From contig CAIOFF010000011.1 of assembly GCA_903857495.1 (NCBI GenBank), positions 1-64,000 on the forward strand: DNA of 64,000 nucleotides. Direction: 5' to 3'. Under the pieces are notes generated by a model. The model worked only from the letters and a program-made list of their open reading frames with translations. It did no database searches and was not told where the DNA came from. The position numbers and the translations under genes are program-made. Of the stretch, positions 23,803 through 58,138 are shown piece by piece. Positions within the stretch are counted from its first letter, which is position 1; each line of letters opens with the position of its first letter. The DNA comes from an uncultured Holophagaceae bacterium (GTDB taxonomy: Bacteria > Acidobacteriota > Holophagae > Holophagales > Holophagaceae).

Positions 23803-24189
23803 ATGGGCACCGATACGGAACCCGCCTTCGAACACGACCCGTTGACCGAGGCCGTGATCGGGTGTGTGTTTCATGTCGCCAATGGGTTGGGGGTCGGTTT
23901 CCTCGAGAAGGTCTACGAGAACGCCTTGGCTCATGCGCTCCGAAAGGTAGGCCTGGAGCTGCAACAGCAGGTCCATGTCGCGGTTCACTTCGAGGGTCAG
24001 AACGTCGGAGATTACATCGGCGACATCGTCGTCGAGGGAAGGCTGCTGCTGGAGCTGAAAGCCTGCGCGACCCTGGAGCCAGCCCACACGGCCCAGTGCC
24101 TGAACTACCTGAAGGCCACCGGAATTCCAACCTGCCTGCTCATCAACTTCGGGACACCGAAACCCCAGATCAAGCGGTTGTCGCGATGA
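23803..24189 (+). CDS. GxxExxY protein (PD-(D/E)XK nuclease-like)
   Basis: 128 residues. The defining motif GFLEKVY is at 32-38, after LTEAVIGCVFHVANGLG. A PD-(D/E)XK-type core follows: Asp74 in YIGDIVVEG and Glu84-x-Lys86 in LELKA, then YLKATGIPTCLLINFG. The family is widespread and its function is not established. It begins 4 bp after leuS, so it is probably co-transcribed, yet it looks inserted: its first codons (ATGGGCACCGATACGGAAC) resemble the repeat unit ATGAACACCGATGAAC, and 59 bp after its stop a 28-bp inverted repeat built of that unit begins. This suggests a mobile or repeat-associated cassette between leuS and pyrE. Confidence 0.88.
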   Translation: MGTDTEPAFEHDPLTEAVIGCVFHVANGLGVGFLEKVYENALAHALRKVGLELQQQVHVAVHFEGQNVGDYIGDIVVEGRLLLELKACATLEPAHTAQCLNYLKATGIPTCLLINFGTPKPQIKRLSR

Positions 24190-24248
24190 CCCGGATATTG
24201 GTTGGGGCCTCCAAGGGGAACAATGAAAGGGCAAATGCTTTTTTTAAA

Positions 24249-24365
24249 CCACCGATGAACACCGATGAACACCGATTAACTGCTGATAAAGAAAAAGGCT
24301 ATAAACACAGAATTTGTTCCTTTTTTATCATGTCTTTATCGGTGTTCATCGGTGTTCATCGGTGG
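24249..24365. repeat. 28-bp inverted repeat of tandem CACCGATGAA units
   Basis: The left arm (24249-24276) is made of tandem 10-bp ACCGATGAAC units; the right arm (24338-24365) is its exact reverse complement. The 61-bp loop holds a second, weaker pairing (GATAAAGAAAAAGG with CCTTTTTTATC). A related copy with different loop sequence but similar folding is at 54894-54999. The rest of the gap to pyrE (24366-24540) shows only a small CCGAG...CTCGG hairpin near 24389 and no clear promoter. Confidence 0.85.
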
Positions 24366-24540
24366 CTAAAAATTCTTTTCAGTAGCGCCGAGATCTTGCA
24401 CTCGGTGCGGGGTCGCAGCGCCGCTCAGCTCGCTTCCCTTGGGCCAATCTTGTTCCCGTTCCGCCTCGATACCCATCCGGGTCGAAGCTATGTTCTATTG
24501 AGCCTCTCCTTTGCGGTGGCTGTTCTTGTGGGAGCTAGCG

Positions 24541-42986: not shown

Positions 42987-45900
42987 CTAGTTCATGTCTC
43001 CGAAGGCCATCCAGGTGTTCGCCGCCACCACGATGAGGGTGACGCCGGAGCCCTGGGCGTTGAACCTCTTGTTGCTGGCGGTGGTGGTGATGGTCGCGGG
43101 TGAGGTGGCGGCCAGGCTCACGGTGCCAGTCCCCAGCTGGGCCACGGTGCACTGGAAGCCTGTGGGCAGGCCCGTGGGCAGGGTCAACGTGATGGCGCTG
43201 GTGTTGCTCAGGGTGATGAAAGCGTTGGCATCGGCGGCCACCAGGGTGTAGGTGGTGCCGGTCTGGGCGTTCACCGTCACCAGCAGGGGTGCGGTGTTGG
43301 TCCAGGTGGGGGCGCCCGTGGCGTTGGACTGCAGCACCTGGCCCGCGGTGCCGACGCCCGTGGAGGCGTAGGCGCTGGTGCTGGCGCCGTAGATGACGCC
43401 GCCCTGGGTGGGCGCGGTGCCGGTGCCGGTGCCGCCGTTGGCCACGGCGATGGTTCCCGTGACATTGGCCGCGCTCCCGGCGATGTTGGTGGTCCAGGTC
43501 GGCGCGCCCGACCCGCCGCTCACCAGCACCTGACCGCTGGTGCCGGCCGTCGAGAAGCCGCTGGTGCCGGCCGCCGACTGGTAGTGGACTGCTCCGGCGG
43601 TGCCGCCCGCCAGGCTGGTGGCGGTGGCCGGCGTACCCCAGGTGGGGATACCGGCGCCGCCGCTCAGCAGCGCCTGGCCGGAGGTCCCGGCCGCCGAGAA
43701 GCCGCTGACGCCTGCCGCCGACTGGTAGTGGACCGCACCGGCGGCCCCGCCCGCCAGGCTGGCGGCAGTGCCGGTGGTGTTCTGGTTCAGGGTGGGCACA
43801 TCCGCGGCCACGAGGCTGCGGAAAGTGGGCGTTCCGGCAGCCCCGCTGGGAGCGGCGAGGAGGGTGTTCGCCGTCTGGCTGGCGAGGGTGCCGGTCAGCG
43901 TGCCGGAACTGGTCACCGGCGAGTTGCTCACCGTGAAGAGCGAGGGCAGCGATAGCCCAACGCTGGTGACGGAGCCAGTGCCCGCGCCACTGGACACCGA
44001 GGAGAGCTGCCCGTTGGCATCGATGACCACGGTCTGGGGGCTGGAGCCGGCCAGGGTCGCCCCGCGGATGCCGGCCACATAGGTCGCAGTCTGGTTGCTA
44101 GAGGTCCCGATGCGGATGGTGGCCGACTCCCCTGCCACGCCCACATGGCCGATGGCGATGTTCTTGCTGCCGGTGGTCAGGAGCGAGCCCGCCCCGGCGC
44201 CGAGGGCCGTGTTGTTCGCGCCGGTCGTGTTGGCGCCCAGGGAGTTGTAGCCCACCGCGGTGTTGGTGGCGCCGGTGGTGTTGGCGTCCATCGAGGTGGA
44301 GCCCACGGCGGTGTTCTGCGCCCCCGTGTTCAGGTACAGGGCCTGGAAGCCCAGGGCCGCGTTATCCGAGGCGGTGTTGTAGAACAGGGCCAGCGAGCCG
44401 ACCGCCGCATTCTGGGCTCCGGTGGCGTTGGTGAAGAGCGCATCGTAGCCCAGGGCGGTGTTGTTGGAGGCGGTGGTGTTGTTGTGGAGGACGCCGAAAC
44501 CCATCCCCGTGTTCTGGGTGCCGGTGGTGTTGGTGACCAGGGCCACGTAGCCGAAGGCCGAGTTGTTGTCAGCGGTGTTGCTGAGCAGGGCGGCGTAGCC
44601 GAAGGCGGAGTTGGAGCTGTTCGTCACATTCGCATTCAGCGCGTTGTAGCCGAAGGCCGAGTTGCTCTGTCCCGTTGTGTTGCTGGGCAGGGCCAGCGCG
44701 CCGAAGGCGGTGTTCCAGGTGCCCGTGCTGTTGGCCAGGGCCCCGGTGCCGGCCTTGGTGCTGTTGTTGACGTCGGAGGTGAGGGTCGCGGCGCTGCCCG
44801 TGGTGCTCTGGTTCAGGGTGGGGATATCCGCGGCCACGAGCTCGCGGAAGGTGGGTGTCCCGGCAGCTCCACTGGGGGCGGCAAGGAGGGTGTTAGCCGT
44901 CTGGCTGGCGAGGGTGCCGGTCAGGGTGCCGGAGCTGGTCACGGGCGAGTTGGTCACGGTGAAGAGTGATGGCAGCGACAGCCCCACGCTGGTGACGGAG
45001 CCGGTCCCCGCGCTGCCCGTGGCGGCAGTGCCCAGCTGCCCGTTGGCATCGATCACCACGGTCTGGGGTGAAGCGCCGGCGGGAGTGACCCCGGTGACCC
45101 CGGCGATGAAGGTCCGGCTCTGGCCGGTCATGGTGGCGCCACTGCCACTGGGGGCCGTGCCCAGGCGCAGGGTGTTGGCTTCCGCCGCCACCCCCGCGTG
45201 GCCGATGGCGATGTTGTAGTTGCCTGTGGTGAGGGCGGAGCCGCCAGAGAAGCCCACGGCAATGTTCCTGCTTCCGCTCGTCCCGCTCTGCAGGGCGCCC
45301 CGGCCGACCGCCACGTTCTGGCCGCCGGTGCCGTTGCCGATCATGGCCGAGTCCCCCAGGGCGACGTTCTCGATGCCTGCGGTGTTGCCGGACATGGCCA
45401 GATTGCCGAAGGCCGAGTTGAAACCACCCGTGGTGGTGGCGGCCAGGGCACCCTTCCCGACAGCCGAGTTGAAGCTTGCCGTGGTGCTGGCCGCCAGGGC
45501 GGAAGAGCCCACGGCGGTGTTGTTGGACCCGATGTTGTTCGCCTTCAGTGCCGAGTCCCCGAGGCCGGTGTTGTAGTTCCCGGTGGTGTTGGCGGACAGC
45601 GCCAGCCAGCCGCCGCGGGTGTTCTGGCTGAACCCGCTCAGGTTGCCGGCCACAGAGGCCACCACGTTGGTGAGGAGGGAGCCGTCCACCGCCGGCAGCT
45701 TCCCGGTGGTGGCGTCGAGCTGGACCACATTTCCGGAAGCGGTGCCAGCGGTGAGGGTGGCGGCGGAGCCCAGGCCCAGGGCTGTGCGGGCGCCGGCCGC
45801 GGTGGTGGCGCCGGTGCCGCCGTTGGCCAGGGGCACGATGTCCAGCCAGGAGGGGGCGCTGGTGCCGTTGGACTGCAGCAGGTAGCCGGAGGTGCCCGCG

Positions 45901-48900
45901 GTGGTGGAGGCGTAGGCGCTGGTGCTGCTGGCGTAGATGACCCCGCCCTGGGTGGGGGCTGTGAGCGTGCCGGTCCCACCCTTGGTCACAGGCACGGTGC
46001 CCAGGCTAATGGCGGGAGTGGTGGTGCCCGTGGTGACGCTGAGGGGCGACGTCGCGGTGACGCTGGTGACCGTGCCCGAGGTGCTGGCGATGGAGCTGAG
46101 CTGGCCCTGGTCGTCGATCACGACGGTCTGGGGCGAGGCGCCGCCCAGGGTCGCACCCCGGATGCCCGCGATGAAGGCCCTGCTCTGGCCGGAAGTGGGG
46201 GTTGCCGAGCCGTTGTAGGTGAAGCCGATTCGGAGGGTGTTCGTGTCGGCGGTGAGGCCCGCGCTGCCGATGTCGATGTTGTAGTTCCCCGTGGTCAGGT
46301 TCTGCCCCGCACTGTAGCCAAGGGCGATGTTGCCGATGCCGATGGTGTTCTGCAGGAGCGACTGCCAGCCCAGCGCCGTGTTGTTGTTCCCCGTGGTGTT
46401 CAGCTGCATGGACTTGTAGCCAAGACTGGTGTTGTAGACCCCGGCGGTGTTGGCGGAAAGTGTCAGGAAGCCGACGGCGGTGTTCTGGTTGCCGGTGGTG
46501 TTGACGGCGAGGGCAGAGGTGCCGACCTTGGTGCTGCCCAAGCTATCGGAGACGAGGGACCCCGCGCTGCCCGTGGTGTTCTGGTTGAGGACGGGTACGT
46601 CGGCGGCCTGGATGGCGGTGAGGCTCACGTTGGTGCCGTTGCCCCGGAGGAACTGGCCCGAGGTGATGCCGCCGGCCAGGGCGTTGAGGGCCGCCTGCTG
46701 CGAACTGGCGCCCGTGCCGCCATTGGCCACGGCCAGGGTCCCGCCCAGGGTGAGGGTGCCGGTGCTGGTGATGGGCCCGCCCGTGGCGGTCAGCCCCGTG
46801 GTGCCCCCGGACAGGGCCACGCTGGTGACCGAGCCGCTGCCGGCGCTGCCCGCGGTGGCGGTGCCGAGCTGGCCATTGCTGTCGATCACGACGGTCTTGA
46901 GCGAGCCGCCCGCGGGCGCCACGCCCGTGATGCCGGCGATGTAGGCCGAGGTCTGAGTCCCGGCGGTGCCGATGCGGATGGCGCCCGACTCCGCCGCCGT
47001 GCCCAGATGGCCGATGGCGATGTTGTTGCTGCCGGTGGTGAGGTAATAGCCCGCCGAGTTGCCCAGGGCGATGTTGTTGCCGCCCGAGGTGTTGGCGATC
47101 AGCGCGTTGTAGCCGATGGCGGTATTGGAATCGGCGGTGCTCACCTTCAGGGCCTGCATGCCGACGGCCACGTTGCTGCTGCCGGTGACATTGGTCTGGA
47201 GGGCGCCCAGGCCCATGGCGACGTTGTAGGCTCCTCCGGTATTTGCGCCCAGCGCGCTGGTGCCCATGGCTGCGTTGCCGATGCCGCCCACATTGGCGGC
47301 CAGGGCGTAGTAGCCAAAGGCTGCGTTGTTGCCACCGCTGGTGTTGCTGCTGAGGGCGGCCCAGCCGAAGGCCTGGTTCTGATTGCCCGAGGTGTTGGCG
47401 GCCAGGGTGCTGTAGCCGAAGGCCGTGTTCGAGGTGCCCGTGGTGCTGGCGGGCAGGGCGGAAGTCCCGCCCCGCGTGTTGCCGGAGCCGAAGGAGGCCA
47501 TGCCTGTGGTGATCACATTGGTGAGCAGGGACCCATCCAGGGCCGGTAACTTGGCTGTCGAGGCATCCAGGCGCACCAGGTTGCCTGCGGCCGTGCCGAC
47601 ATCGAGGGTGGCCGCCGTACCCAGGCCCAGGGCTGTGCGGGCCAGGGGGGCTGTGGTGGCCCCGGTGCCGCCCTGGGCGATGGTGAGGGCCGTGGTGAGC
47701 CCCGTCAGGCTGGTGATGTCGCCGTTGGCGCCGCGCGCCGCGCCGCCCAGGTTGGCCAGGGCTGCGCTGGCCGTGGTGGCGTTGGTGCCGCCGCTGCCGA
47801 TGGGCACGGTGCCCAGGGTCAGGTTGGGTGCGCTGCCGCCGCTGCTGGCCAGCGGCGAGGTCGCCGTGACGGTCGTGACGGTGCCGGAGGCCGTGGACAG
47901 GGGCCCCGACCAGGCGGCACCGCCGTAGGAGTAGTAGCCCGCGCTGCCATCAGTCTGGTAGACCAGCAGGCCCGTGGCGGGCGTGCCGATGGCGGCCCGC
48001 TGGGCGGCGGTCATGCGGGGGGGCAGGAAGCCCTTGGCGGTGCTGGTGAGGTCCAGCAGCGCGCTCGTGTTGGGCGTCGTGGTGCCCAGGCCGACCTGGC
48101 CGCTCAGGAGGGTGTAGCCCGTGCCGCTGGGGGTGAGGGTGACATCCTGGTTGGTGCCCCCGGCGGTGAAGCTGAGCGCGCCGCTGCCCGTGATGGAACC
48201 CGTGCTGGTGCCGGTGCCGCCGCTGCCCAGGGGCAGGGTGCCGGTGACCTCGCTGGCCAGGTTGAGGCTGGCGCCGTTGCCGGCGGCGGTGATGCGGCCC
48301 TGGGCGTCCACCGTGAGATTGGCGCGGGAATAACTGCCGGCCGTGACCGCCGTGTTGGCCAGGGCGAGGGTGCCGGCGCCGGTGATGGTGCCCCCGGTGA
48401 GGCCGGTGCCTGCCGTGACGCTGGTGACCGTGCCGCCGGTGGCGCTGGCGGGGGCCCAGGCCGTGCCATTCCAGGCCAGCACCTGACTGCTGGATGCGCC
48501 CATCTGGTTGAGCTTGGCCGCGGTGACGGCGCCTGCGACCAGGTTCGCGGTGTCCACCCCGCCAGTCGCCAGCGTGATGGTGTTGGCTGTGTTGGTCAGC
48601 CCGGCCCCGAAGGTGAAGGTGGTCCCGCTGTTGAACTGGGTCCAGGCGGTGCCGTTGAAGACATAGCCGTTGGAGAGACCCGTGGCGAAGACCGCGTCCT
48701 TGTTGCTGGGGGCGGCGTAGGTCCAGGCACTGCCACCCCAGGTGGCGATGGCATTGGCTGCGTTGCTCGTGGTACCATCTGCGCCCTGAAGCCAGTCGGC
48801 GGTGGCGATGTAGCGGGCACCAGGGGCAGGGTCCGGAGGCGCCGTGGCGGCGAGGCTGACCACGGAGTCCCGCCACACCAGGCCGCCGCTGAGACTGTCT

Positions 48901-51900
48901 ACGTAGGCCTTGGTGGCGGCATCGGTCGGATCGGTGGGGGCGGAGAGGCTCAGGATCTTGTGGCTGCCGAGGTTGAGGTCTGCCGTGGCGGCCACGGTGC
49001 CGTCGGCCTTGAGGAAAGAGGTTCCAGCCAGGGTGGCTGCCCTGGTGGCGGCCGTGGCGAAGGCGCTGAAATCAGCCTGGGCCAGGTAGCCGTCCTGGCT
49101 CACAGAGGCCTGGTTGATCCCGAGGGTGCCAGCCCCCGTGATCGGGCCACCGGTGAGAGGCCCGGTGGTGGCAATGCTGGTGACCGTGCCCTTGCTGTTG
49201 AACGTGGTCCAGTCCGTGCTGGAGAGGTAGCCTGCGATGGTGCCGCTGGCCTGGGCGATGCTGATCACGGGGGCGGTCTCGGTCCCCCCCGTGGACAGGG
49301 GCAGCCCGCTGACGGTGACCCCGGTGACCGTGCCGCTGCCCTTGCTGTTGAAGATGGTCCAGTCCGTGCCGGCGAGGTAGCCGTCCACCCCGCTGGCGGC
49401 CTTGGCCATGCTGAGGACCGGCGTGGTCCCGCCGCTGGCGAGGACCGGGGCCGTGGCGGTGACGCCCGTGACCGCCGTGCCCAGGCCGAGGTTGGTCCGG
49501 GCGGTGGCGGCACTGGTCAGCTCGCTCAGGTTGTTGGCGGCCAGCAGGCCGCCGCTGCTGCTCAGGCCCTTCCAGACCGGCGGTGCTGCATTGGCATCGG
49601 TGCAGACGAACCCGAGTCCGGTGCTGGCGTTCACCCAGAGAGAACCCACGCCGTAGCCCGCGCCGCTGTTGGCGCTGGCATCGGGATCCCCTGTGGCTGT
49701 GAGGTTGTGCTTCAGGTTCGCCACCTTGTCCAGGCCCACCTGGGTGCTGGTCAGGCCCGTGAGCTGGGAGCCGTCCACGGCGGGCAGCTTGGCGGTGGGC
49801 GCATCGAGCTGAACCAGGTTGCCGGCGGCGGTGCCAGCGTTCAAGGCGGCGGCGGTGCCCAGGGTGGGTCGGTCGCTCAGGCTGGCATAGCTGCCGGTGC
49901 TGGCCACGGCGGCGAGGCCCAGGTTGGTCCGCGCGTCCGAGGCGCTGCCGGCGCCGGTGCCGCCGAAGCTGACGGGCAGCACGCCCGTGACGTCGCTGCC
50001 CAGGGCCACCGTTCCTTTGGTCGCCAGGGTGCCCAGGGCCGTGCCGTTCACCCGGATCGCCCCGGTGGCGTTGATGTCGCCGGTCACCTGGAGGGCGTAC
50101 CCTGTGCTATTGATCCGCACCTTCTCGGTGAAGGTCGTGCCATCGGCCACGGCGAGGCTGCCGAAGGACATGAAGGCGCCGGCGTCCGGGAAGAAGCTGC
50201 GGAGCTCCGAGGGCTGGATGCCGAAGCCGTAGAAGTTCTTTGGGCCAGGATCATCGAAGAGCAGGAGCTGCTTGGGCTGCACGCTGAGACCAAAGGACAG
50301 CAGGGCGCCCGGCGTGGTGGTGCCGATGCCGACGCCCCCGGTCCCGGTGGGACTCAGGAGGACGCTGTTGTTGCTGCCACCTGCCGCGAGGGAGAGGGTC
50401 CCGGTGCCGGTGATAGAGCCCGTGCTCGTGCCGGTGCCGCCATTGGCCACGGCCACGGTGCCGGAGATACTGCCGGCCGTGCCGGTGACGCTGCCCACAA
50501 TGGGGCTGCTGAAGGTCTTGGTCCCGGCGATGGTCTGGTCGTTCACGGTGTAGACGCCTTTGGTGACGCTGCTGGCGTTGCCGGTGGTGTCCTGGTTCAG
50601 GGTCGGGAAGTCCAGGACGCCTGCGAGGCTGGGCCTGCCATTGTCCCCATTCTTGAGGATGCCGGGGCCGAGGCCGGCCAGGGAGACGCCGTTGAGGCGG
50701 CCGACCAGGGTGGCGCCCTGGGTGCCGGTCACGTCGCCCGAGAGGCTGCCCGAGAAGCTGGTGGCCGAGGTCGCGGTGGCCACGGAGCCCGTGGTGGGCG
50801 CGAGGGTCTGCCAGCCGGCGCCGGTGGCATCGTAGACCAGCAGGGCCTTCAGGTCCGTGTCGTAGACGACGAGGCCATTGGCCGGAGAGCTGATCTTGTC
50901 CCGGTCACTGGAGCCCATGCGGGGCGGCAGGAAGCCCTGGGTGGTGGAGCTCACTTCCAGGGCGGCGGTGGCCGCGGGGGCCGGGGTGCCCACGCCCACG
51001 GAGCTCCCCAGGGCCACGGCGCCGGTGCCACTGGGAATCAGGGTCACGCTGTGGTCGCCGGCCCCTGCCGAGAGGGTAAGGTTGCCGCTGCCCGTGACGC
51101 TGCCTGTGAGGGCGCCGCTCAAGCTGCCGCTGAAGGTCTTGGCCCCGGCGATGGTCTGGTCGCTGGAGAGGTCCACGAAGGTCTGGGTGCTGGAGCCCGT
51201 GCCGCCGAGGCTGATCGGCACCGTACCCAGGGTGAGGACCGGGGTGGTGGTGCTGTTGGCGACACTGATGGGACCACCGGCAGCGCCGCTGACGCTGAGC
51301 ACGCTGCCCTTGGCGGCGAAGGCCGCGAAGTCGGTGGCGGCCAGGTAGCCATCCGCACGGCCCGAGGCTCTGGCCAGGTCGATGACGGGGGAGCTGGCGC
51401 CGCCGCTGAGGCTCACGGAGAGGGGTGAGCCGGTGGCGGCACTGACGCTGGTCACGCCGCTGGAGAGGCTGCTGCCGGGCGTCACCCAGGCGCTGCCGTT
51501 GAAGAGCATCAGGTCCTTTAGGTCCGTGTCGTAGACGGCAAGGCCCAGGACCGGCGCGGGATTGCTCCCGGTGCCCATGGCCGTGCGGCTGGTCGTGGAC
51601 AGGCGGGGCGGCAGGAAGCCCTTGGTGGTGGAGCTGATCTCCAGGGCGGCCGCGGCGTTGGGGGCGGCGGTGCCGATGCCCACGGAGCTGCCGAGCGCCA
51701 CGGTGCCGGTGCCGGCGGGGGTGAGGGTGACGTTGTTGTTCCCGGTGTCGCCCGTGCCGGCAGCGAAGGTCAGCGCGCCGGTGCCGGTGATGGAGCCGGT
51801 GCTGGTCCCGGTGCCGCCGAGAGCCAGCGCCAGGATTCCGGTGGCGATGTTGGAGGCGTTGCTGGTGTCCACATTGGCGACATTGCCGAGGCCCACCTGG

Positions 51901-54704
51901 CCCTTGGTCAGGCCCGTCAGGCCCGAACCGTTGCCCGTGGGAGCGAGATAGTCGGTGCCCGCCGTGGGCTTGTTGCCCAGATCGCTGTAGCTGCCGCTGC
52001 TGGCAACGGTGGCCAGGCCCAGGTTGGTGCGGGCGGTGGCCGCGCTCGCCAAGTCGCTCAGGTTGTTGGCTGTGCCCAGGCTGCCAGAGGCGGTGGTCTC
52101 CTTCCAGAGTGCGGCGCCCGCGGCGGCACTGAGGCAGACGAACTCCTTGCCCGTGACGGTATTCAGCCAGCGGGATCCGCTTGCGTAGCCGGCGCTGCCG
52201 TCGGCGGTGACGCCCGGATCGGTCTCGGCGGTGAGGTTCACCTTCAGGTTCTCGACCTGACTCAGTCCCACCTGGCTTTTGGTCAGCCCTGTCAGCCCGG
52301 ACCCGTTGCCGGTGGGAGCGAGGTAGTCAGTGCCCGCCGCAGGTTGGTTGCTCAGATCGGCATAGCTGCCGGTGCTGGCGACGGTGGCGAGGCCCAGGCT
52401 GGTGCGGGCGCCCAGGGCCGTGGTGGCACCGGTGCCGCCACTGGTCAGAGGCACGGTGCCCAGCGTGAGGTTGGGGGTGGCGCCGCCGGAGCTGCTCAGC
52501 GGCGCACTGGCGGTGACATCGGTGACGCTGCCCGAGCCCACCTGGGACCACGCGGCGCCATCGTACTGGTAGAGGCCCGCCGGGGCGTCGGTCTGGAAGA
52601 CCACCAGGCCCGCCACCGGGCTGGCAATGGCGGTCCGCTGACCCGCGCTCATGCGCGGGGGAAGGAAGCCCTTGGTGGTGGAGGCGATCTCCAGCGCGGC
52701 GGCGGTGCTGGGGGTGGCGATGCCAACCCCGAGGGAGCCTGCCGAGACGGTCCCGCTGAAAGCGCCTGCGCTGCCAGCGACGTTGCCGGTGATCGTGCCT
52801 GCGGCAAAGCTGCCCGAGGCGTCCCGCTTCACCAGGGTCGAGGCGGTGTTGGCGTCCGTGGCGGCATTGGCCAGGATGGCGGCGGCGGCCACGCTGGCGG
52901 CGGTCTGCCCGCCCACGCTGCCCACGGTGTTGGTCTTCTGGGTCCCGGTCACGTCACCGGCGAGTCCCCCGGTGAAGTTCACGGCGTTGGTGGCGTTGGC
53001 GATGGTGCCGGTGGTGGGGGTCAGGGTCAGCCAGACCGGCGTGGCCCCGCTGGCGTCGCAGACCACGAGGGCCTTGAGCTCCGTGTCGTACACCACGAGG
53101 CCGCTGGTGGGGGTGGCGATGGCCGCGACCTGGGCTGTGGTCATCCGTGGGGGCAGGAAGCCCCGGGTGGTGGAGCTCACTTCCAGGGCGGCGGAGACCG
53201 CGGGGGTGCCTGTGCCTACTCCCACGGCACTACCCAGGGCCACGGACCCGCTGAAGGTCTTGGCCCCGGCGATGGTCTGGTCGCTGGAGAGGTCCACGAA
53301 GTTCTGGGTGGCCGATCCCGTGCCGCCGTGTGCCACGGCCACAATGCCGGTCACATTGGCTGCATTGCCGCTGATGTTGCCGCTCACGGCCGCACCGGAG
53401 ATCGTGCTGGAGGCCGTCATGGGGCCACTGCCGTTGCCATAGACATAGCCCGTCAGGGAGCTGGCGCCGGTGCCGCCGCTGGCGGCGTTCAGGGTGCCGC
53501 CCAGGGTGATGACGCCGCTGGTGGAGATGGCCGAGCTGGCCGTGAGGCCCGTACCGCTCGTGTCCAGGCCCACGCTGGTGACGCTGCCGCTGCCCTTGCC
53601 CGCGAAGGCCGCGAAGTCGGTGGCGGCCAGGTAGCCATCGGCACTGCCCGTGGCCTTGGCCAGCCCGATGACGGGGGAGCTGGCACCGCCACTGGTGCTG
53701 ACCGAGAGGGGTGTGCCGCTGGCGACGCCGACGCTGGTCACGCCACTGGAGAGGCTGCTGCCGGGGGTCACCCAGCCACTGCCGTTGAACAGCATCAGGT
53801 CCTTCTGGTCCGTGTCGTACACGGTGAGGCCCATGACCGGCGCGGGGCTGCTCCCGGTGCCCATGGCCCCGCGCTGGGCGGTGGTCATGCGGGGCGGCAG
53901 GAAACCCTTGGTGGTGGAGGCGACGTCCAGGGCGGCTGCCGAACTGGGGGTGGTGGTGCCGATCCCCACGGAACCTGCCGTGTAGACCGCGTCGCTGCCA
54001 TTCAGCAGGAAGGGGCTGGCCCCAGCGGCCCCGGCCTCTCCCTTTGCTCCCGGCGCGCCTGCGGGGCCGGCATCGCCCCTGGCGCCGGTCAATCCCGTCA
54101 GGCCGGTGGGCCCCTGCGGGCCCGCCGGTCCAGGCGTGCCCGCCACGCTGGAAGGCACCCACTTGGCGCCGTTGAACACCAGGGCCTGGCCGTTGGTGGG
54201 GGCGTTGGTGGTGAGGTCCAGGGGCGTGCCCTGCAGCTTCATGACGAGGATCTGGTTCTGCGTGCCGCTGAGGTCCCCGCTGAAGGCACCTGTCACTTCC
54301 CAGGCGGCGCTGGCCTGGAAGGCCGGCACGATGGCCGCATCCGGCGTGAGGACCTGGCCCCCGAGGACCACATGCAGCTTCAGGCCCGCCTTGCCCAGCA
54401 GGGCTGTCGGCAGGGCCGGCATCCCCGTGCCGCCCAGCACCACGGAGTAGAGCCCCTCGGTCACCGTGAGCGTCAGCGAGCCGGAGCTCCACAGCTCCGC
54501 CCCGGTGCTGTCCAGGAGGCTGAAGGCGAAGGTGCGCGCGCCGTTCACTGCCGTCACGCCCTCCATCAGCCGACCCTGGTAGGTCAGCGTCGGCGCCGGG
54601 GCCGGATCCACGGCCGAAACGGCCGGTCGCTCCTGCGCGGGCAGGACGGATCCGCCGCAGGCGATAAGCGTGGCAATGGTGGGGGTGAGGAAGGAAGGTC
54701 GCAT
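42987..54704 (-). CDS. Giant modular fibre-like surface protein (3905 residues)
   Basis: Starts at the ATG at 54704 with a signal peptide ([24 protein letters not shown]). The N-terminal domain (about 35-190; [20 protein letters not shown]) is shared with the S74 protein at 55484. A collagen-like Gly-X-Y stretch (about 195-240) follows, then a very long repeat region. It has six copies of a module around FLPPRM ([11 protein letters not shown], then GLVVYDTD-type strand), many [12 protein letters not shown] and [15 protein letters not shown] segments, and in the C-terminal half YadA-head-like repeats ([30 protein letters not shown]). The end ([20 protein letters not shown]) resembles phage tail-fibre tips; there is no S74 domain. 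Probably a trimeric extracellular fibre or adhesin. A triple 10-bp operator lies 97 bp upstream. First of a three-gene operon. Confidence 0.88.
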
Positions 54705-54800
54705 GGTGTACACCCGGAGCAAGAGCGCATGGGATCCGTTTTCGGACCCTCGCATACATAAAGTCCCATCGCGCCGAACGGCCCGCCAATGAAAGCCGCC

Positions 54801-54836
54801 AACACTTCCTGACAATTCCTGACAATTCCTGACATT
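54801..54836. promoter_or_regulatory. Triple 10-bp direct repeat operator, giant fibre gene
   Basis: Three tandem TTCCTGACAA-type units with 10-bp period (TTCCT at 54806, 54816 and 54826), preceded by AACAC. The same arrangement recurs at 58948-58980 and 59891-59924. Tandem 10-bp half-sites fit OmpR-family regulators such as the one at 58988-59740. Confidence 0.75.
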
Positions 54837-54893
54837 GGGCCTGGGGCCAGGAGGCAGAGGCCGCGCCGCTGGCAAAGGAAAAGGACTTCTTGG

Positions 54894-54999
54894 CCACCGA
54901 TGAACACCGATAAAGGCATGATGAAAAAGAAATCCCTAGGTCTCCAGGGCTCTTTTCTTTATCAGCTTTTTATCAGTGTTCATCGGTGTTCATCGGTGG
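54894..54999. repeat. Hairpin of CACCGATGAA units (second copy)
   Basis: CCACCGATGAACACCGAT (54894-54911) pairs with a right part of three ATCGGTGTTC-type units ending at 54999. The loop has its own pairing (TGATGAAAAAGAAA with TCTTTTCTTTATCA, and CCCT with AGGG). It matches the element at 24249-24365 in arms and folding but not in loop sequence. Here no GxxExxY gene is beside it. It lies in the 779-bp gap between the two fibre-type genes. Confidence 0.8.
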
Positions 55000-55133: not shown

Positions 55134-55376
55134 CACCACCAAGACACCAAGGGCACCAAGAAAAGCATGGCCCCTCAGGTGGGGCCACCTTGCGCGCAAC
55201 CATTGGGGACTGTCACTCGTTCAGCACGGGTTGGATCCCGGGGGCGCCAGGGCTGCGCTTCTTGGCACGCGACCCCGGCGCCCCCGGGATCACTTACGGC
55301 GCAGCCGGAAGCCGCCTGCGGCGGACCCGTGCGCGATGCGACGGCGCCGCTTGGTGTCCTTGGTGCCTTGGTGGTG
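55134..55376. repeat. 243-bp element bounded by 27-bp inverted CACCAAGG-type repeats
   Basis: The left end (55134-55160) and right end (55350-55376) are reverse complements at 25 of 27 positions and consist of near-tandem CACCAAGG units. Inside, GATCCCGGGGGCGCC (55234-55248) pairs perfectly with 55277-55291, and TGGCCCC with GGGGCCA near 55168-55187. Outside, TCTTTGTGTTCTTTGTGG (55417-55434) is a different short-period repeat. No protein-coding frame is credible in 54837-55483. Confidence 0.7.
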
Positions 55377-55483: not shown

Positions 55484-58138
55484 CTACTGCGGCAGCCGGG
55501 CCAGGATGGCGGCGACCTGGGCCTTGAGGGTGGCCAGCTCGGCCTTGGTGGCCTGGTTCTCGGCCTTCAGGGTCTGGTTCTCGGCCTGCAGGGCCTCGAT
55601 GGCCTGGTGCTGCTTCTGGGCTTCGTTCAGCAGCATGGGCGGCAGCAGTTGGTAGGCCACGGTCTCGATCTGGCCGTCCTTGTCGCGGACGGTCATTTCG
55701 GGAATCACCTGGTCCACTTCCTCGGCGATGAGGCCGAACTGCGTGCCTCCGCCGCCGTACTCCGCCTTGTAGTTGAAGGTCACCGGCCGCAGATTGAAGA
55801 TGCGGCTGGAGAGGTCCCCCATGGGCTGGATGTTTTCCTTGAAGCGGCGGGAAGAACTGACCGTTCCCAACTGACCATTGGCATCGATTAACACGGCGAT
55901 GCCAGAGATTGCCCCAGTGGTGACGCCCCGGATGCCCTTGATGGTGGTCGCCGTGGTCGAAGCATTGCCGATCAGCGTCGTGCCGCTGCCCAGGCCCGTG
56001 GTGTTGGCGCCGAGGACGATCTCGTTGCTCGCCGAGCTGGCCGAGGCGTAGGTCGTGTCACCGACATAGATGTTGTAGTTCCCGGTCGTGGCCACCAGGC
56101 CGCCGCTGTTGCCCAGCGCCACGTTGCCCTTGCCCGTGGTGTTCTGGGAGAGCGCCCAGTGCCCCACCGCCACGTTGCTCATCCCGTCCGTGGCCAGGTT
56201 GTTGTTCGGCGCGTCCGTCGGGTTCGTGCTGACCAGGGCCGAGGTCCCGATGGCGACGTTCTGGCTGTAGTAGGGGTTCCCCGTCCCATTGTTGTAGCGC
56301 AGGTTCCCCAGGGCGTTGCTGCCCACCGCCACGTTCTGCCAGGCCTGCGTGTTCGCCGTGAGCGCGCCGTGGCCCGCGGCCAGATTGTCTCCGGCCGCCG
56401 CCACGCTGCCGTTCGCGTTGGTGCCCACGGACACGTTGTTGTGGACGTCCGAGGCGATCCTGGCCCCGGCCCAGGAGGCCGCCGAGCCATCCGTGGTCAG
56501 GAACTTCCCGCTGTTCCCCGTCTGGGCAGGCAGGCTGGCGCCGCCTCCACCGGCGGCCCAGACGGGTGCGCCGGAGACCATGGTCAGGACCTGGCCGTTG
56601 CTGCCGCCGCTCGTCAGGCCCGTGCCACCGCTGGCCACGGGGAGGGTGCCGGTCACGTCCGCGGTCAGGCTGGCCTGGTCCTTGGCGGCCAGGGCCCCCA
56701 GGGTGGGCTTGCCGCTCAGGTCCGCGTAGGCCCCGGTGGCGGCCACGATGGCGAGGCCGAGGCTGGTGCGCGCCCCGGCCGCCGTGGTGGCTCCCGTGCC
56801 GCCGCTGGCCACGGGCACGGTGTCCAGGGTCAGGTTCGGCGTCGCGCCCCCGGAGCTGGCCAGTGGGGCGGAGGCCGTCACCGCCGTCACGCTGCCGGCG
56901 CCCACCTGGGACCAGGCGCCCCCGGAAAACTGGTAGAGCCCCGCCGTGCCGTCGGTCTGGTAGACCAGCAGGCCCGCCGCCGGGGCGGCGATGGCCGCGC
57001 GCTGGACCTGGGTCATGCGAGGGGGCAGGAAGCCCTTGGTGGTGCTGGCGACGTCCAGGAGGGCGCTGGCGCCGGGGGTCGCGGTCCCGAGGCCCATGGA
57101 CCCTGCGGTATAGGTGACATCAGTCCCGCTCAGGGTGAGGGGGCTGGCGCCCTGCGGACCCGTGGCGCCCGTGGCGCCGGTGGCACCCTGCGAACCTGCG
57201 GCGCCGGTGGCTCCGGTCAGGCCCGTGTCACCCTTGGCGCCGGTGGCCCCAGTCAGCCCTGTGTCGCCCTTGGCTCCGACTGCGCCAGCGGCGCCTGCAG
57301 GTCCCACCAGGCTCACGCCGGAGATGGGCCAGGCCCCGGCGGCCTTCGGGCCCCACAGGGTGTTGGTCGTGGTGTTCAGGTAGAAGTCGCCGTTGCCGCC
57401 CACACCCACGGCGGGGTTGGCGGCGCCGCTCAGCACGGTCCTGCCGTCCAGGCCATTGGCGCCTGCGGCACCGGCAACTCCGGCTGCTCCCGCCGCGCCG
57501 GTGGGGCCGGTGGGGCCCTGGGTGCCCGGTGCCCCTGAGGCACCCGTGGCGCCCGCAGGCCCCGGGGTGCCGACGACGGTGGACGGCACCCACTTGGTGC
57601 CGTTGAACACCAGGGCCTGACCCGCCGTGGGCGCGTTGGTGGTGAGGTCCAGGGGCGTGCCCTGCAACTTCAGGATGAGGATCTGATTCTGGGTGCTGGA
57701 GAGATCGCCGCCGAAGGTGCCTGTCACTTCCCAGGCACTACGGGCCTGGAAGGCGGGCACGATGGTCGCGTCCGGTGACAGCGCCTGCCCGGCCAGCACG
57801 ATGTGCAGCTTCAATCCCGCCTTGCCCAGCATGGCCACGGGCAGCCCCGGCATCCCCGTGGCGCCCAGCACCACGGAGTAGAGGCCCTCCGTCACCGTCA
57901 GGGTCAGCGGACCGGAGTTCCACTGCTCGGCCCCCGCGCTGTCCAGGATGCTGAACACGAACTGGCGCGCCCCGTTGACCGCCGTGGCGCCCTCGATCAG
58001 GCGTCCCTGATAGGCCAGCGTGGGTGCTGGGGCCGCATCGGCCACTGCGGCGGCCGAAAGCTCCTGCGCCCTCAGGGGCGGCAGGGCCGTGCAGGCCACG
58101 AGGGCGGCGATGGTGGGGGTGAGGAACGAGTGGCGCAT
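55484..58138 (-). CDS. Fibre-like surface protein with C-terminal S74 chaperone domain
   Basis: 884 residues, start with AGGTGA upstream. A signal peptide (ends PPLRAQ) and an N-terminal domain paralogous to that of the giant protein ([20 protein letters not shown]) precede two collagen-like Gly-X-Y stretches (about 190-225 and 265-320), one FLPPRM module, GGTGATT segments and YadA-head-like repeats ([21 protein letters not shown]). The C-terminus is a Peptidase S74 intramolecular chaperone (about 760-845; SSRRFKENI with Ser and Lys in place, [15 protein letters not shown]) ending in a coiled coil (about 845-884). S74 domains help trimeric fibres fold and then cut themselves off. Expected to be a trimeric extracellular fibre. 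Probably co-transcribed with the lipoprotein upstream. Confidence 0.9.

Follow-up and report, generated by a model that had tools for sequence, protein, structure and literature searches.

GxxExxY genes from many phyla lie between inverted arms made of tandem short units, and these boxes are present in some genomes and absent from the same intergenic gaps in others. We lean towards reading the boxes as hairpin-bounded mobile cassettes whose movement is driven by a nuclease acting on its own arms. A cassette would span about 0.5 kb and consist of a left arm of tandem units, one small gene for a Cas4/RecB-like nuclease and an inverted copy of the arm; the left arm, of 10-bp units or, in another protein clade, 8-9-bp units, would often give the start codon. 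Cassettes would be gained and lost whole in intergenic gaps, often precisely between a stop codon and the next start codon. The window (the whole stretch of 64,000 nucleotides that was analysed) contains a GxxExxY gene beside leuS.

The arm test compares the 300 bp upstream of a gene with the 300 bp downstream and scores their best inverted match, with 15 as the threshold; it was applied to 80 GxxExxY loci sampled from 80 places in diverse genomes and many phyla. A score of at least 15 is found at 67 of the 80 loci (84%). Among controls it is found in 3 of 480 windows shifted within those contigs and in 8 of 613 further ORFs of 90-200 aa (Fisher 2e-70, with loci counted as independent and kinship ignored). 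Four of the eight positive control ORFs are themselves GxxExxY (L095, L129, L155) or S23 (L141) genes. The original prediction had proposed comparing repeats near GxxExxY genes with those near other genes, and the enrichment is there. This also refutes chance neighbourhood, in which a common intergenic repeat happens to adjoin these genes. In favour of chance, repeats are abundant in the window genome and several are near no GxxExxY gene. This account is left with next to no probability by the contrast between 84% of loci and about 1% of controls, which spans many phyla and a variety of unit sequences.

Adding 37 loci from the window genome and its phylum brings the armed loci to 97 of 117. 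The median arm is 34 nt long, and the median distance between arm end and domain is 20 bp on one side and 31 bp on the other. Arm units are tandem 10-bp (CRCMGATGAA) or 8-9-bp (CRCAGAGA, CACGAAGA) sequences, and the commonest layout is AACCGCAGATGAACGCAGATGAACGCAGAT, gene, inverse. The left arm contains an in-frame ATG in 41 of the 97 armed genes, giving peptides such as MNADERR and MNTDEHR. GxxExxY proteins had been said to start often with unit-encoded peptides, and the count agrees; annotated GxxExxY proteins so often begin with MNTDEHR-like residues because the left arm is translated. In a subgroup (L091, L092, L187, L008) the arms are oriented outward and their units are CGGTGATGAA or CAGTGAGGAA, not CRCMGATGAA.

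The closeness of the arms to the gene, and the frequent supply of the start codon by the left arm, would suit an ordinary host or defence-type nuclease gene whose arms serve as terminators, attenuators or mRNA-stability hairpins. This explanation is improbable. The period of the units is conserved and their sequence variable; dozens of non-coding hairpins in the window genome have GxxExxY-type arms and no gene. Occupancy of orthologous gaps is polymorphic, and one gap accepts boxes of other families, as detailed below.

Judged from sequence comparison, arms and protein appear to travel and evolve together. Pairing scores 0.67 per base between the two arms of one element and 0.20 between arms of different elements. 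Unit order is mirrored between the two arms; on average 10% of shuffled orders are equally good, a result that the choice of arms by best alignment favours. Unit type changes 6 times on the protein tree against a shuffled mean of 20.9, and 0 of 200 shuffles are as low. Separating GAT from GAG/AAG units takes 2 changes on the protein tree, with the arm-coded N-terminus cut from the alignment. Unit type tracking the protein tree is expected under recognition and under plain linkage alike; arm-protein co-evolution likewise follows from simple linkage.

The window gene (23803..24189, + strand) encodes 128 aa with a predicted PD-(D/E)XK nuclease fold, in which E35, D74, E84-x-K86 and Q98-xxx-Y102 are intact. 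In profile searches the protein matches TIGR04256 at 130.8 bits (curated cut-off 35) and PF13366 PDDEXK_3 at 132.9 bits (curated cut-off 22). Its ATG at 23803 lies 4 bp downstream of the leuS stop, as first described. The start-codon region, ATGGGCACCGATACGGAAC (23803..23821, + strand), had been likened to the repeat unit; the likeness holds loosely but is vague in the window, and the start region of the G016 orthologue, ATGAACGCCGAACTGGAAC, is closer to the unit. This region, which codes the disordered N-terminus, is probably a decayed left arm. The window copy gives a background score of 9.5 in the arm test and is an atypical, poor example of a box, with its left arm almost lost and a complete hairpin downstream of the gene. 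Differences to L087 number 8, 3 and 26 at the first, second and third codon positions, which indicates purifying selection.

The downstream hairpin begins 59 bp past the stop codon, and its stem consists of CACCGATGAA units. The 28-bp perfect inverted repeat of tandem units described earlier is present at 24249-24276 / 24338-24365; it sits within an imperfect 38-nt arm pair. The left arm (24242..24279, + strand) comprises two copies of CACCGATGAA plus CACCGATTAA, with an A/T-rich outer end; the right arm (24335..24372, - strand) is the inverted copy. Folded as single-stranded DNA, the hairpin has an energy of -44.6 kcal/mol, a z of -12.7 relative to dinucleotide shuffles. Rfam gives no match above the gathering score close to the window gene.

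Across the whole genome, ACCGATGAACACMGAT with at most 2 mismatches has 131 matches, against 1 for the backward-read pattern. The genome contains 8 GxxExxY genes, 6 of which are flanked by inverted arms; units vary among these six (CACAGATGAA, CACCAAGA, CACCGATGAA, CACGAAGA, CACGAAGGA and, read inward, CTCACTGTTC). Among hairpins of this genome sampled by place, the repeat-only ones have the same arms as gene-bearing boxes and also the same inner variant units. A repeat-only copy had been proposed at 54894..54999; it exists, is made of the same CACCGATGAA units as the downstream hairpin and is a non-coding relative. A third hairpin (55134..55376) has CACCAAG-type 8-9-bp units in arms of 27 nt with 189 nt between them; the boxes of GxxExxY locus L002 and of the HNH gene of G012 and G055 have the same arm class. 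Under the mobile-cassette reading, non-coding hairpins with the same arms would be internally deleted or never-coding relatives.

The hairpins at 54894-54999 and 55134-55376 both lie in the gap separating two giant related ORFs. The first, a repetitive ORF of 3962 codons, is at 42987-54875 (- strand) and the second at 55484-58138. A 10-bp word, TTCCTGACAA, occurs in 3 tandem copies at 54800-54840 and adjoins the hairpin at 54894.

Modelled with AlphaFold2, the window protein reaches a pLDDT of 93; residues 1-8, which are arm-coded, are disordered (pLDDT under 50). E35, D74, E84 and Q98 are invariant among 74 GxxExxY sequences, and K86 and Y102 are conserved in at least 90%. The best Foldseek matches of the model are Cas4 SSO0001, lambda exonuclease, LHK-Exo and AddAB, every one with an E above 0.001. 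A second aligner gives Cas4 SSO0001 a VIA Z of 10.1 and the archaeal Holliday-junction resolvase Hjc a Z of 7.7. On this modelling, GxxExxY is a predicted Cas4/RecB-like nuclease with its catalytic residues intact. It has the fold and the motif order E, D, E-x-K, Q-xxx-Y of Cas4, RecB and lambda-exonuclease PD-(D/E)XK nucleases; unlike these, it has only about 115 ordered residues and is coded in a hairpin-bounded cassette. A sequence search of the PDB gives no significant match to the window protein. No phage family in PHROGs and no defence family in PADLOC matches it either; the PADLOC result speaks against an ordinary defence-type gene.

Cassettes might move as follows. The arms may form a hairpin or cruciform by extrusion, or may pair as RNA, and the nuclease may recognise and cut the arm structure. 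Cutting would then cause the cassette to be copied or inserted, and repeat-only copies would be mobilised in trans. We infer in this way that the cassette is moved by its own nuclease.

Occupancy is polymorphic at three sites: leuS-pyrE, cdsA|dxr and the guaB gap. The leuS-pyrE site is empty in G003 (the closest sister there, with 19 bp), G012, G001 and G011. It holds GxxExxY plus hairpin in G016 and a hairpin alone in G004; in several other genomes it contains cysK without the element. These empty sites and other inserts answer the question, raised originally, of whether the gene is fixed beside leuS: it is not. Target duplications were also looked for upstream of leuS, where the flanks are too divergent to align. 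In G014 the leuS-pyrE site (L033) is occupied by a composite insert that includes an ORF6N gene. The ORF6N-domain gene replaces the N-terminal part of GxxExxY; about the last 35 GxxExxY codons and two unlike hairpins remain. ORF6N was considered as another cargo and rejected, as 10 loci show no flanking arms (scores 10.5-13).

Of 30 congeners, 8 have an insert at the cdsA|dxr site (filled) and 22 have none (empty). Filled junctions read TGA|TCTCCACGAAGG...GTGGAGATC-T-run|ATG, also given as TGA|TCTCCACGAAGGACACGAAGG...CCTTCGTGGAGATC-T-rich|ATG; empty junctions are clean and read TGA|GTG or near it. The terminal inverted repeats are GATCTCCACGAAGG...CCTTCGTGGAGATC. No target-site duplication is found between filled and empty genomes at cdsA|dxr, the one well-resolved site. 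At least 6 filled/empty changes are required on the dxr tree. Among loci L278-L307, the dxr start codon is ATG in every filled genome and GTG or another codon in every empty one, which makes it unlikely that the box was exactly lost several times over. The pattern is better explained by several gains, or by recombination that spread the box together with flanking sequence. The boxes are 70-86% alike and their flanks 79-90% alike, which implies that the scatter at this site is old; one box is decaying. The scatter could reflect one insertion spread or lost through homologous recombination.

The guaB gap is nearly empty in G113. In G000 and G016 it is occupied by a GxxExxY box; G003, G109, G121 and G009 have hairpins of 7-bp units there, and G012 and G055 an HNH gene boxed by CACCAAGA-type arms. 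Inserts thus differ between species, and one gap receives boxes of different families. The HNH endonuclease gene, which has a weak SRA-like N-terminal match, lies in its box at 1501-2184 of L332 (G055) and in the insert at 680-1500 of L326 (G012). The idea that HNH relatives are a cargo class in general was rejected: 99 genomes contain a single further copy, in the same guaB gap and with weaker arms.

The original prediction of a self-standing cassette that inserts into intergenic space holds in part. Presence/absence and clean junctions agree with it; a source copy, a target duplication and autonomous mobilisation were not seen. No recent source-product pair of GxxExxY boxes is apparent, and the sole recent burst found, in G104, is carried by an insertion sequence of the IS5 family. 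This genome has 48 GxxExxY matches, about 30 of which are near-identical N-terminal fragments. The burst was rejected as self-driven mobility, since the repeated unit runs on into an IS5-family transposase and the GxxExxY box is a passenger in IS transposition. The IS5-family element (e.g. L225-L277) is present in about 40 near-identical copies, with the GxxExxY hairpin box near one end. Copies have graded internal deletions that end at short microhomologies such as AGGATC, and some deletions leave just one arm fragment.

Many scattered non-coding intergenic palindromes with fewer gene-bearing relatives that have the same ends are also a feature of MITEs and of REP/RAYT palindromes (for REP palindromes, PMC3733652). 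Three features set GxxExxY boxes apart. MITEs and REP/RAYT have a DDE or HUH transposase, whereas the protein of the boxes is a Cas4-like predicted nuclease. The box ends are tandem arrays of a short, sequence-variable unit, unlike MITE and REP/RAYT ends. Finally, we count as a difference that no target duplication is seen for the boxes.

S23 (PF05635) genes have the same kind of surroundings. They lie between inverted arms at 35 of 39 loci, with a period that is nearly always 7 bp; the unit sequences of S23 boxes are very different from one another. PF05635 has no match in the window genome. In Coxiella burnetii, the 23S rRNA intervening sequence (IVS) has a 28-bp inverted stem and tandem repeats of a GACAGAT heptamer before the S23 ORF, and is cleaved by RNase III (PMC4990558). 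The origin and function of 23S rRNA IVSs were called unclear more than 25 years after their discovery (PMC4990558).

S23 IVSs resemble GxxExxY boxes in being 0.4-0.5 kb cassettes with inverted terminal arms that form a long stem, a single small ORF and a sporadic distribution. Both have tandem short units beside the start codon. They differ in cargo, which is the four-helix S23 protein in IVSs and, by sequence, a predicted PD-(D/E)XK nuclease in GxxExxY boxes, and in unit length, which is 7 bp in the former and 10 or 8-9 bp in the latter. Their sites differ too: IVSs occupy helices 9, 25 or 45 of 23S rRNA, and GxxExxY boxes the leuS-pyrE, cdsA-dxr and guaB gaps.

This shared architecture, with its 7-bp units, raises the possibility of a passive, IVS-like cassette. 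The arms would matter as RNA: once transcribed they would pair into a stem and be removed by RNase III, so that an insert in an operon or rRNA gene is tolerated; the Coxiella IVS, with its inverted stem, heptamers and RNase III cleavage, speaks for this. Spread would occur via homologous recombination, transformation or IS hitch-hiking, for which the IS5-borne box of G104 is an example, and the nuclease would serve another purpose. We consider this main rival possible but doubtful. It leaves a conserved, predicted active nuclease unexplained. Among arm mismatches, changes compatible with G.U pairing number 121 in sense and 132 in antisense RNA for GxxExxY, and 34 and 44 for S23; the sense strand shows no excess, so selection for an RNA stem on that strand is not apparent, which speaks weakly against RNA selection.

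A wider possibility is a widespread superfamily of tiny mobile elements in which the period goes with the cargo, being 10 bp or 8-9 bp for GxxExxY, 7 bp for S23 and 8 bp for HNH. Their ends would be inverted stacks of short units with a family-specific period, their cargo would be exchangeable and their intergenic docking sites shared. The cargo protein would read the repeated structure and not one sequence. The 23S rRNA IVSs, and possibly cyanobacterial heptamers, would be special cases; we hold this wider scheme to be speculative.

The family names and the IVS layout for S23 are already known. GxxExxY boxes, their clade-specific units and the layout in common with S23 are undescribed in the open-access journal papers that were searched, and the arm sequences do not occur there. 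The name GxxExxY appears in 2 of these 5.39 million papers, and a passage from one of them does not deal with the DNA around the gene. GxxExxY proteins are common, and their placement in cassettes gives a first concrete hypothesis on their target, namely their own arm hairpins. The same architecture at S23 genes ties GxxExxY boxes to ribosomal intervening sequences. In addition, the cassette layout predicts an identity for the short-unit palindromes scattered between genes in many phyla.

The STRR heptanucleotide repeats of cyanobacteria were reportedly described as tandem repeats by Mazel et al. in 1990. Like S23 boxes they consist of tandem 7-bp units; compared by description, STRRs are tandem repeats, whereas the units of S23 boxes form the inverted arms of gene cassettes. 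Inverted arrays of 7-bp units were also observed around an inositol-monophosphatase-like gene (L097, 288-1207) and a nucleotidyltransferase-like gene (L103, 2410-3586). Each of these arrays is possibly two single S23-type hairpins.
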